Below, one piece after another: positions 2,084 through 6,300 of a stretch of 64,000 bases of DNA. The translations under genes were made by a program, and so were the position numbers. The notes under the pieces were generated by a model. It was given only the letters and a program-made list of their open reading frames with translations, was not told the DNA's origin and did not search any database. Within the stretch, counting starts at the first letter, position 1; each line of letters opens with the position of its first letter. The DNA is from Halorussus marinus (GTDB taxonomy: Archaea > Halobacteriota > Halobacteria > Halobacteriales > Haladaptataceae): contig NZ_SBIV01000002.1 of assembly GCF_004765795.1 (NCBI RefSeq), positions 248,001 through 312,000 on the forward strand, given 5' to 3'.

Positions 2084-2479
2084 ATGTCGGACACGAACCC
2101 CACGGGCGCGAGCTCGGGGGCGCTTCGACCGCTCGCGCTGGTCGCGATCGGCGGGTTCGCCGGGGCGGTGGCTCGCTACGCCGTCGGAGTGGCGCTCCCG
2201 GCGGGCTTCCCGTGGGGGACGCTCGCGGTCAACGTCGCGGGGAGCTTCGCGCTGGGTGCGTTGAGCTACGAGTCTCGGCTGGTCGGTCGAGTCGGCCCCC
2301 GGACCCGGCTGATGGCCGGGACCGGCTTTCTCTCGTCGTTTACCACCTACAGCACGTTCGCGGTCGAGACCGCCGCGCTCTCGCCCGCGCTAGCGGTCGC
2401 GAACGTCGGCGCGAACTACGGACTCGGGTTCGTCGGGGTGGTGGCCGCCCGCGCAGTCGTCTCGGGGGTGGCGAGATGA
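2084..2479 (+). CDS. crcB: Fluoride efflux channel CrcB/Fluc, first subunit
   Basis: A 131-residue protein with four predicted membrane segments. It carries the Fluc hallmarks: GGFAGAVARYAVG near the start, NVAGSFALGAL in helix 2, and the fluoride-lining box FTTYSTFAVE in helix 3. Fluc channels let fluoride leak out of the cell and so protect enolase and pyrophosphatase. The ATG at 2084 gives a short hydrophilic N-terminus of about 18 residues. The stop overlaps the start of the next crcB gene (ATGA), so the two are almost certainly co-translated. Paired genes like these are known to build heterodimers in some species; whether that holds here is inference. Confidence 0.92.
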   Translation: MSDTNPTGASSGALRPLALVAIGGFAGAVARYAVGVALPAGFPWGTLAVNVAGSFALGALSYESRLVGRVGPRTRLMAGTGFLSSFTTYSTFAVETAALSPALAVANVGANYGLGFVGVVAARAVVSGVAR

Positions 2480-2826
2480 ACGCCCCGCTGTTGGTCGGTG
2501 CGGGCGGCGTCCTCGGGGCGGTGGCTCGCTACGCGGTCGGCCGGCGCCTTCCGGGTCGGACCGCGGACACCTTCGCGGTGAACGTCCTCGGGAGCCTCGC
2601 GCTCGGAGCCCTGACCGTGGGCGTTCCGGCGAACGCGCCGGTTTCGGCCGCGTTCGGCGTCGGCTTCTGCGGGGCCTTCACGACGTTTTCGAGTTTCGCC
2701 GTCGAGACGGTAACGCTCTACGAAGAAGGGCGACGGCGGGCGGCGGTCCGGAACGCCGTGCTCAACCTCGTCGGCGCGCTGATCGCGGTCGGGATCGGCG
2801 GCTGGCTGGCGAGCGCCCTCGGATGA
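2476..2826 (+). CDS. crcB: Fluoride efflux channel CrcB/Fluc, second subunit
   Basis: A 116-residue, four-helix protein with the same motifs as its neighbour: GGVLGAVARYAVG, NVLGSLALGAL and GAFTTFSSFAVE. It lacks the hydrophilic N-terminal extension of the first subunit and begins directly with a hydrophobic helix. The start codon overlaps the previous stop by four bases, which points to translational coupling and a shared transcript. The two proteins differ clearly in loops and C-terminus, so this looks like an old duplication rather than a recent copy. Function is membrane fluoride export as a dual-topology or heterodimeric channel. Confidence 0.92.
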   Translation: MNAPLLVGAGGVLGAVARYAVGRRLPGRTADTFAVNVLGSLALGALTVGVPANAPVSAAFGVGFCGAFTTFSSFAVETVTLYEEGRRRAAVRNAVLNLVGALIAVGIGGWLASALG

Positions 2827-2920: not shown

Positions 2921-3150
2921 AGAAAGCGCCCGAGGCGGGATTTAAACCACGGTCGTTCCACTCGCCGCGCTCGGTCACTTCCTGTTTCAAATCCCTTCGA
3001 TCGCGGGCTCGCCGGAGACGAGTGCCAGAGACGACCCAAGCAGTGCTCGTCGATATGGTTCGCGGAAGAAAGCGCCCGAGGCGGGATTTGAACCCGCGTC
3101 ACAACCGTGACAGGGTTGTATGATGGGCCACTACACCACCCGGGCTTTCG
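2921..3150. repeat. 230-bp direct repeat, copy A (contains tRNA-Asp and a tRNA 3' fragment)
   Basis: This stretch matches 3997-4226 with no indels and about 6 mismatches in 230 bases (offset exactly 1076). It begins with a fragment matching the 3' end of tRNA-Asp (2921-2948, from AGAAAGCGCCCGAGG onward, one mismatch), continues through about 120 bases of spacer and ends just past the 5' end of the complete tRNA. The spacer has an inverted partner of the T-arm sequence at 2986-2995 (TTCAAATCCC). Identity stops sharply at both ends, so this is a duplication boundary, not general similarity. Confidence 0.9.
3073..3145 (-). tRNA. tRNA-Asp (anticodon GTC), copy 1
   Basis: The minus strand folds as a standard 73-base cloverleaf. 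The acceptor GCCCGGG pairs with CTCGGGC (one G-U), and the anticodon stem is CAACC/GGTTG with loop CTGTCAC, giving anticodon GTC. The T arm is CGGGTTCAAATCCCG, and discriminator G73 fits aspartate identity. No CCA is encoded, as is usual in haloarchaea. A TATA-like element lies about 33 bases upstream (3173-3183). It is identical in sequence to the second copy at 4149-4221. Confidence 0.96.
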
Positions 3151-3172
3151 TCTGCACTTGCCTCTTTCGCCG

Positions 3173-3183
3173 GCTTATATTAA
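3173..3183 (-). promoter_or_regulatory. TATA-type promoter of tRNA-Asp copy 1
   Basis: Read on the minus strand this is CTTAATATAAG, an A/T-rich box in G+C-rich DNA about 33 bases before the tRNA 5' end. That is the expected place for an archaeal TATA box. It lies just outside the duplicated segment, so it is specific to this copy. Confidence 0.6.
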
Positions 3184-3316
3184 GGCGTGCCGGTTTCGTG
3201 CGCCATCGGTGTGTGCTATCGGATGGCAAGACAACTCGGTTGCCTTCACCACGGGGTCGGTGCGTTTCAGTTCGGTCCCCTCGCCCGTGTGCTTCGTCTC
3301 CAGGACCGTCCGGGGA

Positions 3317-3910
3317 ATGGTTCGACACCTATTCTACAACGGCTTCCACCCCGTGTTCCCGTGGATGGCGTTTCTGCTGTACGGGATGATTCTCGGCCGG
3401 ATGGATCTCCAGAACGTCTCCCTTCGGCGACGCGTGATGGGCGGTGCGATCGCCGTCGCGGTCGCGGCGGAATCCGTCTCGTGGATACTCACCGAGACAG
3501 TGGCCGGCAGTCTCCACTCGGTGCCGCGGTCGGATATCGCGTTCCTGTTCGGGACACAGCCGATGCCGCCGATTCCCCTCTACATTCTCGCGGGGGCTGG
3601 TACCGCAACGATAGTGATAACGGACTGTCTCGAGCTCTGTGAGTACGTCTCTAACGAAGACCTGCTTCAGCCGCTCGTCGCGACCGGACAGATGGCGTTG
3701 AGCCTCTACGTCGCACACGTCTTGCTCGGAATGGGTGCTCTGGAGGCGATCGGCCGTCTCGAAGACCAATCGCCGCCCTTCGCGATGGCCAGCGCGCTGA
3801 CGTCCTCCGTACTAAGTATCGGCTTCTCGTATCTGTGGCTCCGACGGTACTCGCGGAGTCCGCTCGAACAGGTCATGCGCACGCTGACAGATAGAGAACT
3901 CTGGTCGTGA
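3317..3910 (+). pseudogene. Truncated DUF418/YeiB-type membrane protein (C-terminal half)
   Basis: From ATG 3317 the frame gives 197 residues with several membrane segments. It starts NGFHPVFPWMAFLLYGM and has a late TGQMALSLYVAH segment, then a basic C-terminus ending in SPLEQVMR. This is the pattern of the C-terminal domain of DUF418 (YeiB-like) or acyltransferase-like membrane proteins. Family members are normally about 350-400 residues, so the N-terminal half is missing. The frame stays open back to 3107, but that part runs through the antisense of tRNA-Asp and has no family features. It sits exactly between the two copies of the tRNA repeat, so I read it as a remnant left by the rearrangement. 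A short functional protein is not excluded. Confidence 0.6.
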
Positions 3911-3996
3911 GAACTACCGGTGGGAGAAACCGCCAGCGGGCGTTCGATTTGATCGAGCGTTCGCTCGGAGCTAGCGGCTCGCGAGTCGACGTCACC

Positions 3997-4226
3997 AGAA
4001 AGCGCCCGAGGCGGGATTTGAACCACGGCCGTTCCACTCGCCGCGCTCGGTCACTTCTTGTTTCAAATCCCTTCGATCACGGGCTCGCCAGAGACGAGTG
4101 CCCGAGACGACCCAAGCAGTGCTCGTCGATATGGTTCGCGGAAGAAAGCGCCCGAGGCGGGATTTGAACCCGCGTCACAACCGTGACAGGGTTGTATGAT
4201 GGGCCACTACACCACCCGGGCTTTCG
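3997..4226. repeat. 230-bp direct repeat, copy B (contains tRNA-Asp and a tRNA 3' fragment)
   Basis: This is the second copy of the segment at 2921-3150. Its leading tRNA 3' fragment (3997-4024) matches the complete tRNA at 4145-4172 perfectly for 28 bases. Inside, GGGATTTGAA at 4013-4022 and TTCAAATCCC at 4062-4071 form a perfect 10-base inverted repeat, so the fragment ends in a palindromic arrangement. The identity with copy A ends at 4226, after which the two upstream promoter regions differ completely. Confidence 0.9.
4149..4221 (-). tRNA. tRNA-Asp (anticodon GTC), copy 2
   Basis: A 73-base cloverleaf on the minus strand, identical to copy 1: acceptor GCCCGGG/CTCGGGC, anticodon loop CTGTCAC, discriminator G, no encoded CCA. 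It has its own TATA-like sequence (4256-4261) unrelated to that of copy 1, so both genes are probably expressed. It lies divergent from the rpoH operon. Confidence 0.96.
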
Positions 4227-4507: not shown

Positions 4508-4735
4508 ATGGTAGACGTAAGCCAACACAACCTCGTTCCGGACCACAGCATCGTCGACGATGCCGAGTTAGACGACGTGCTGGAGGAGTACGACATCAAA
4601 GAGACCGACTTACCCAAGATCAAGCGGACCGACCCCGCGTTGCCCGACGACGCCGAGGTCGGCGACGTCATCAAGATCGTGCGCGACTCCCGAACGACCG
4701 ACACCGCGACCGTATACCGACTCGTCGTAGAATAA
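4508..4735 (+). CDS. rpoH: DNA-directed RNA polymerase subunit H (Rpb5 C-terminal homologue)
   Basis: A 75-residue protein, the normal length for archaeal RpoH, which matches only the C-terminal domain of eukaryotic Rpb5. It starts [12 protein letters not shown] and includes [11 protein letters not shown] and [11 protein letters not shown], all strongly conserved. The subunit sits in the lower jaw of RNA polymerase near downstream DNA. Its TAA stop overlaps the ATG of rpoB'' by one base, so the two are translationally coupled. It is the first gene of the RNA polymerase operon, the standard archaeal order. Confidence 0.97.
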
Positions 4736-6300
4736 TGAACAGGGAAGATCGACGCGCCATATCGCAGGAGTATTTCTCGAAAGAACGGCTCGCAGAGCAC
4801 CACTACCGCTCGTTCAACTCGTTTCTCGAGCGGGGGATGCAGCGGGTAGTCGACGAGAAAGAGACCATCGACACCGACATCGGCGACAAAGAAGACGAGG
4901 AGCCGGTCCACGTCGAACTCGGCGACGTCCGGGTCGTGACGCCGCGAGTCCGGGAGGCCGACGGGAGCGAGGAGCTCCTCTACCCTCAGGAGGCCCGGCT
5001 TCGAAACATCACCTACGCCGCGCCCGTGTTCATGGAGATGTCCATCGTCAAGGGCGAGGGCGAGGACGAACGCGTGGTCGACGCCACCGAGACCAAGGTG
5101 GGCCGGATGCCCATCATGGTCGGCTCCCAGAAGTGTAACATCGCGGGCTTCTCCGACGAGGAACTCATCGACATCGGCGAGGACCCGGCCGACCCCGGCG
5201 GCTACTTCATCGTCAACGGCTCCGAGCGGGTGCTGATGACGAGCGAGGACCTCGCGCCGAACAAGATCCTCGCGGAGTACGACAGCAAGTACGGCGACGA
5301 GATTCAGGTCGCCAAAACCTTCAGCCAGCGTCGGGGCTACCGCGCGCTGGTGCTCGTCGAGCGGACCCGCGACGGCCTGCTCGAAGTGTCGTTCCCGTCG
5401 GTCTCGGGGAGCGTCAACTTCGTCACGCTCGTCCGAGCGCTCGGGCTCGAATCCGACGAGGAGATCGTCCACCGGGTCTCCGACGACCCCGAGATCGTGA
5501 AGTTCATGCTGGAGAACCTGGAGGCCGCCGACGTCCAGACCGAGGAAGAGGCGATCGAGACCCTCGGCAAGCGCGTCGCCTCCGGACAGGGCAAAAACTA
5601 CCAGCTCAAGCGCGCGAACTACGTCATCGACCGCTACCTCCTGCCTCACCTCCACGAGGAGGGGGTCGAGGAAGAGGACGTCCGCATCAACAAGGCCTAC
5701 TACCTCTGTCGGATGGCCGAGGCGTGTTTCGAGCTCGCGCTCGAACGCCGCGAGTCCGACGACAAGGACCACTACGCGAACAAGCGCCTGAAGGTCTCGG
5801 GCGACCTCATGAAGGACCTGTTCCGGACGGCGCTCAACAAGCTGGCACGCGACGTGAAGTACCAGCTCGAACGCGCCAACATGCGCAACCGTCAGCTGTC
5901 GGTCAACACCGTGGTCCGGTCGGACGTGCTGACCGAGCGGCTCGAACACCCCATCGCGACGGGCAACTGGGTCGGCGGCCGGTCGGGCGTCTCCCAGCTG
6001 GTCGATCGCACCGACTTCATGGGCGTGTTGAGCCACCTCCGGCGGCTTCGCTCGCCGCTCTCCCGGAGCCAGCCCCACTTCGAGGCGCGGGACCTCCACG
6101 CGACCCAGTGGGGTCGCATCTGTCCCTCCGAGACCCCGGAGGGGCCAAACTGTGGGCTGGTGAAGAACTTCGCGCAGGCGATGGAGCTGTCACAGAACGT
6201 CGAAGACGAACAGGGCCTGAAACGAGAACTGGCGTCGATGGGTGTCGAGGGGATCCCCGGCATCGAGGGCGTCGAACCAACAGCAAGCGCAGACGACTAA
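4735..6300 (+). CDS. rpoB2: DNA-directed RNA polymerase subunit B'' (N-terminal half of split beta subunit)
   Basis: A 521-residue protein. Haloarchaea, like many methanogens, split the beta-like subunit into B'' and B'. This is the N-terminal piece: it contains the protrusion, lobe and fork-region sequences, with [13 protein letters not shown]-like start, [13 protein letters not shown], and near the end [20 protein letters not shown] (about 460-480), a signature of all beta subunits. The ATG overlaps the rpoH stop. The split point falls after the fork region, and the last 20 residues are acidic and variable, as expected for a gene break. The next gene begins 1 base after the stop. Confidence 0.97.

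Follow-up and report, generated by a model that had tools for sequence, protein, structure and literature searches.

How two identical tRNA-Asp genes have come to enclose a piece of a foreign gene is the question raised by a locus of Halorussus marinus, which lies in a window of 64,000 nucleotides (the whole stretch of DNA analysed). Each tRNA gene belongs to one unit of a 230-nt direct repeat, and the two units align gap-free at an offset of 1076 with 97% identity, the second copy being matched with an E-value of 6.9e-109, which excludes a chance match. The tRNA-Asp(GTC) genes, located with ARAGORN on the minus strand, are identical in 74 of 74 nt, share the anticodon-stem allele CAACC/GGTTG and run leftwards, pointing away from rpoH (Table 1). 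TATA-like boxes are present upstream of both genes in 5' flanks that are unlike each other, and both promoters look intact; a fragment of the tRNA 3' end is found in each repeat unit, on the 3' side of the gene when read in the tRNA's direction. The initial annotation had described the indel-free repeat, the identical tRNAs with their 3' fragments and differing promoters, a truncated DUF418 gene between them and the lack of an integrase, all of which has been borne out, the DUF418 piece alone lying between the repeats. For the origin of the arrangement it had proposed either the scar of a lost element or a tandem duplication that captured a foreign gene piece. Misassembly is an unlikely cause, as the repeat sits within a 565-kb contig, its two copies differ at several positions, and two tRNA-Asp genes also occur at this locus in 14 congeners, each assembled separately.

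Table 1. Features of the tRNA-Asp locus in window coordinates
Feature	Position	Strand	Basis
crcB-type gene, conserved left flank	2084-2479	+	Pfam CRCB, E=3.4e-21; syntenic in most congeners
Second crcB-type gene, left flank	2476-2826	+	Pfam CRCB, E=1.8e-24
Direct repeat copy 1: tRNA-Asp, spacer and tRNA 3' fragment	2921-3150		Repeat comparison
tRNA-Asp 3' fragment, T arm to acceptor end	about 2926-2949	-	Sequence; like fragments at many tRNA-Asp loci
tRNA-Asp(GTC), distal copy, allele CAACC/GGTTG	3072-3145	-	ARAGORN; allele typing
Ancestral 5' flank/promoter of distal tRNA, TATA-like TTATATT, common to congeners	3151-3217	-	blastn
Segment between ancestral flank and DUF418 piece	3218-3297		No match in congeners nor elsewhere in own genome
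5'-truncated DUF418 piece in place of nuclease gene	3298-3910	+	Pfam, homologue comparison
Direct repeat copy 2: tRNA-Asp, spacer and tRNA 3' fragment	3997-4226		Repeat comparison
tRNA-Asp 3' fragment; inverted repeat with 4059-4071	about 4002-4025	-	Sequence
tRNA-Asp(GTC), rpoH-proximal copy, allele CAACC/GGTTG	4148-4221	-	ARAGORN; allele typing
rpoH, conserved right flank anchoring the orthologous locus across haloarchaea	4508-4735	+	Synteny
rpoB'', species marker used in tree	4735-6300	+	ORF; tree

The ORF between the tRNAs has been identified as the C-terminal portion of a DUF418 protein (PF04235, E=3.8e-14); two genomes that belong to another family contain homologues of full length (364 aa, 82% identity). 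To these genomes the piece shows 84% DNA identity, the similarity extending from window position 3298 to near 3925-3945; roughly the first 160 codons are absent, and the stop codon is retained at 3908-3910. Owing to this 5' truncation, it is not a working gene of the known length. The search of the own genome that had been suggested for the missing half has returned no DUF418 at E<=1e-20, nor has one been found at this threshold in the own family; DUF418 is absent between the tRNAs from all 16 congener loci compared, and the interval has given no match on plasmids. As judged from these matches, the piece, which lacks its 5' part, has been acquired horizontally from another haloarchaeal family.

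The repeat has been used as a query against 18 Halorussus genomes, the window's own included, and 16 congener loci have then been compared. Two tRNA-Asp genes lie between crcB and rpoH in 14 of the 16 loci, 439-925 bp apart from start to start. The window's flanks outside the two repeat units match the distal and proximal flanks of the congeners (for 3067-3218, 87.6% blastn identity to G001), and the arrangement, with both positions and their own flanks common to these 14 loci, is by this alignment evidence not a recent duplication. A recent tandem duplication of the tRNA unit capturing a foreign gene piece, the second of the earlier proposals, is favoured by the 97% identity of the 230-bp units, yet both flanks are ancestral and common to congeners that already have two tRNAs, which refutes it as the origin of the pair and makes this reading scarcely credible. 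Since the flanks beyond the units are two different ancestral flanks, the near-identity of the units is best read as the product of later homogenisation. The 230-bp unit is also present (73%) at the single rpoH-proximal site of congener G008.

In the congeners, the gap is occupied by an ORF of ~140 aa on the same strand as the tRNAs, of which nine genomes have an intact copy and seven a broken one. The ORF has been assigned to PF11645 (PDDEXK_5) with E=1.7e-40 and 138.6 bits against a cut-off of 26.1. It is alone in the Halorussus tRNA interval, where no partner gene has been seen, and even the two congeners with one tRNA-Asp only, G005 and G008, keep it (broken in G008). Of the two-tRNA arrangement with an intact DUF418 gene, named in the initial annotation as evidence against a recent scar, the relatives hold the two tRNAs and not the DUF418 gene. 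A PF11645 profile search of the window genome, for which matches of the same profile in 114 of 242 haloarchaeal genomes are the only positive control, has found none, and tblastn has revealed no convincing nuclease remnant at the window locus, which encodes no nuclease and is a former site only. The window's nearest relatives, G001 and G012, possess a nuclease of the clade termed A below together with the CAACC allele. From these relatives and from CAACC in both window tRNAs, we infer that a clade-A nuclease has been lost from the window lineage. Something has indeed been lost, as the annotation supposed, but the usual occupant is a PD-(D/E)XK nuclease gene and not an integrase element.

The fragments of the tRNA 3' end, which are common at tRNA-Asp loci in all contexts, run from the T arm to the end of the tRNA or slightly beyond. 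In this they resemble att sites, and the locus might be read as the footprint left at the tRNA 3' end by a site-specific integrative element, unconnected with the nuclease. Such a scar is very unlikely: the interval holds no integrase, only the DUF418 piece between the repeats, the congeners carry the nuclease gene in the gap, and the fragments recur at many tRNA-Asp genes whatever the context, with hairpins that include inverted T arms also near tRNA-Gly, Arg, Met and Ser of the window genome. The fragments are a feature separate from the nuclease story; their interpretation as nuclease-cut products has been rejected, as they start at the T arm and not at the anticodon. Short elements have been noticed 3' of tRNAs, in which about 100 nt are followed by an inverted T arm (GGATTTGAACC), then by a 3' tRNA fragment beginning at GGTTC and copying the adjoining tRNA, sometimes in tandem at 130-150 nt. 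The places noted are 2926-3067 and 4002-4143 of the window, G000:C1:28162, C1:86786, C2:345969 and C3:59194, and loci L058, L094 and L100, the hairpins near the four other tRNAs of the window genome being similar.

Among solved structures, the closest to the congener nuclease by both sequence and fold is I-Ssp6803I (2ost, E=2.1e-9; Foldseek TM 0.78), a PD-(D/E)XK homing endonuclease that belongs to a group I intron of cyanobacterial tRNA-fMet and has its target in tRNA-fMet. Chains of 2ost are the top Foldseek matches of the nuclease model (pLDDT 89.9), the active-site D and QxK are present in the alignment to 2ost, and D38, Q51 and K53 are invariant among 28 nuclease sequences; NCBIfam models for the nuclease have not been found. 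For the family as a whole, 49 PF11645 loci from a scan of named genomes and 110 from a whole-genome panel have been combined, giving 159 loci with 143 distinct proteins. A co-directional tRNA lies directly 5' of the nuclease at 149 of them (hosts tRNA-Asp, Asn, Pro, Lys and Gly), the chance of tRNA adjacency being about 1% as estimated from about 50 tRNAs in 3.5 Mb; a tRNA only 3' of the nuclease occurs at 2/159 and no tRNA at 8/159, seven of these eight being the most divergent family members. The nuclease protein tree requires 6 changes of tRNA identity, as few as 7 states allow, compared with at least 45 changes in 200 shuffles, which establishes the tRNA specificity at the level of sequence. 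Intact copies have been under purifying selection (dN/dS 0.08-0.18), despite which the nuclease decays repeatedly within Halorussus, and this combination of selected intact copies with broken copies in many relatives would be as in the life cycle of homing genes. PF11645-like nucleases with 36% identity have further been seen in the Halorubrum/Haloarcula tailed viruses HSTV-4, HRTV-15 and HJTV-3 (H7-H11); the divergent members L207-L209 and L211-L214 have no adjoining tRNA and are in some cases plasmid-borne, the plasmid relatives being labelled 'group I intron-associated PD-(D/E)XK endonuclease' by NCBI. These halovirus and plasmid relatives are possible vectors for the nuclease.

The rpoH-side tRNA-Asp locus is orthologous in nearly all haloarchaea examined and is held by three alternating nuclease clades, A, B and C, whose host tRNAs differ in the anticodon arm: ACAACC-CTGTCAC-GGTTGT for clade A and ACGACC-...-GGTCGT for clades B and C. 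Among 242 genomes, those with an A-type nuclease comprise 35 with CAACC, none with CGACC and 2 with another allele, those with a B- or C-type nuclease 0 with CAACC and 26 with CGACC, and those without an Asp nuclease 31, 132 and 16 with CAACC, CGACC and other alleles, respectively. This linkage has been evaluated on an rpoB'' tree of 57 taxa as the species tree, with pairs counted on supported branches, and in 12 independent pairs differing in clade the allele has been concordant in 11.4 on average and opposed in 0 (p 0.0005-0.001). The nuclease tree is discordant with the species tree, A versus non-A at the rpoH locus requiring 16 changes on the rpoB'' tree; within Halorussus, clade and allele change 5 times each and agree in all 16 typed genomes, G002 excepted. 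This genome (locus L037) is the sole Halorussus with one CAACC and one CGACC tRNA-Asp next to each other, has a broken clade-B nuclease and possibly has been caught mid-replacement. Against the linkage count other alleles at three A-type loci (L066, L073, L079). As 132 nuclease-free genomes, the majority, carry CGACC, this allele is not a universal marker of resistance, and the B and C nucleases would have to cut another target than CGACC, such as CAACC. Linkage within one transferred segment could also have caused the allele switches without any resistance.

Nucleases of other clades adjoin tRNA-Asn and tRNA-Lys and, once, lie upstream of tRNA-Arg(TCT), and most of these tRNAs have anticodon-loop introns of about 27-38 nt, which fold as a bulge-helix-bulge or close to it; no introns have been seen in the tRNA-Asp and tRNA-Pro hosts of the nuclease. 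In one genus, the cassette is seen to be present or absent, the interval from tRNA-Asn to tRNA-Met measuring 559-596 nt with the nuclease versus 69-154 nt when empty, and the empty sites of relatives keep an intact host tRNA gene. The tRNA-Asn intron has been found in 20/25 cases with and 3/21 without nuclease (Fisher p=1.8e-5), an association that is not significant under independent pairs, of which only 4 were supported, leaving the comparison underpowered; five tRNA-Asn loci with nuclease and without intron count against resistance by introns. In tRNA-Pro(TGG), a nuclease host, the anticodon arm differs as a whole block within one genus while the rest is nearly unchanged (L272-L301). The tRNA-Pro(CGG), which hosts no nuclease, has the same arm throughout 18 genomes. 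The arm type of tRNA-Pro(TGG) has been dropped as proof, as it does not track nuclease presence in the few genomes compared.

Taken as a pattern, this is what free-standing homing endonucleases would be expected to produce, and we regard the window locus as probably the decayed homing site of a tRNA-specific enzyme of this kind, patched with a DUF418 fragment. Free-standing PD-(D/E)XK homing endonucleases related to I-Ssp6803I would reside directly 3' of particular tRNA genes, each lineage being specific for one tRNA, and would most likely cut the anticodon-arm DNA of cassette-free alleles. This DNA is a natural pseudo-palindrome and a likely target, because a single compensatory change of a base pair affects both half-sites, which an intron moves apart. 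Repair from the cassette would then copy the nuclease gene together with the neighbouring uncuttable tRNA, resistant either by a stem recoded with a compensatory base pair (tRNA-Asp) or by an intron splitting the site (tRNA-Asn, Lys). Locus orthology, the absence of the nuclease, tRNA specificity, the linkage of alleles and introns and the presence or absence of the cassette are seen in the sequences themselves; that the enzyme cuts, where it cuts, that the marked tRNA resists and that break repair copies the cassette are all steps that we infer from comparing genomes. Simple disruption of the site does not account for cassettes flanked by a complete tRNA at either end. In Halorussus, the ancestral cassette would have been tRNA-Asp / nuclease / tRNA-Asp, of which the window lineage would have kept both clade-A-type tRNAs and lost the nuclease, in whose place came foreign DNA of about 0.7 kb that includes the DUF418 piece; the 230-bp unit would have been homogenised between the two positions before or after this replacement.

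The same nuclease might instead be immobile, sitting behind tRNAs for its expression or for a host function, e.g., defending attachment sites in tRNAs from integrating elements, with the allele link arising solely because one DNA segment is transferred as a whole. Its nearly always co-directional position with the tRNA and the purifying selection would fit, and tRNA genes are integration sites that introns have been proposed to protect (PMC4090602). Frequent decay and absence in sister species, the swapping of three clades at one orthologous locus, a homing endonuclease as the nearest solved relative and the lack of a visible partner gene in the Halorussus interval all argue against such a resident, which we hold to be improbable.

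The decayed homing site resembles several known systems in part. With I-Ssp6803I the haloarchaeal nuclease shares the fold, the D...QxK active site and a tRNA gene as target, but the gene for I-Ssp6803I lies within a self-splicing group I intron, whereas the haloarchaeal gene stands on its own 3' of the tRNA, and such introns as accompany it are of the short bulge-helix-bulge type. LAGLIDADG homing endonucleases, encoded by ORFs inside archaeal rRNA introns, likewise link archaeal introns with homing, but belong to another nuclease family, with rRNA host genes and the ORF within the intron; such rRNA introns have been treated in PMC6125680 and PMC4496867. In the collaborative (trans) homing of phages, a free-standing endonuclease gene acts with an ORF-less group I intron (PMC3984707, PMC10448857): here, too, the nuclease gene lies beside the host gene, intron and nuclease go together and the intron should block cleavage at the site, but the introns are phage group I introns, in contrast to chromosomal archaeal tRNAs with protein-spliced introns or a recoded anticodon stem. 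Archaeal tRNA introns have apparently also moved in the Thermoproteales (Fujishima 2010), a transposition whose mechanism is given as unknown in the review passage on it (PMC4090602), whereas in haloarchaea the intron-bearing tRNA has a nuclease gene linked to it. In the open-access literature, no paper has been found that describes a tRNA-bound haloarchaeal nuclease system.

The wider claim that archaeal chromosomal tRNA genes serve as homing sites through which tRNA-specific PD-(D/E)XK nucleases spread themselves among haloarchaea, with resistance written as a bulge-helix-bulge intron or a compensatory stem swap, we consider evenly balanced on the genomes compared. If true, it would provide a cause for the movement of some archaeal tRNA introns and for flips of the anticodon-stem allele, and it would offer one for the duplication of tRNA genes and for compensatory change in anticodon stems as well; a family whose nucleases pair one-to-one with tRNA genes and go with introns or stem alleles would make the question of tRNA-intron transposition testable. 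The window itself would then represent the end of the cycle, in which the nuclease is gone and the marked tRNA pair remains.
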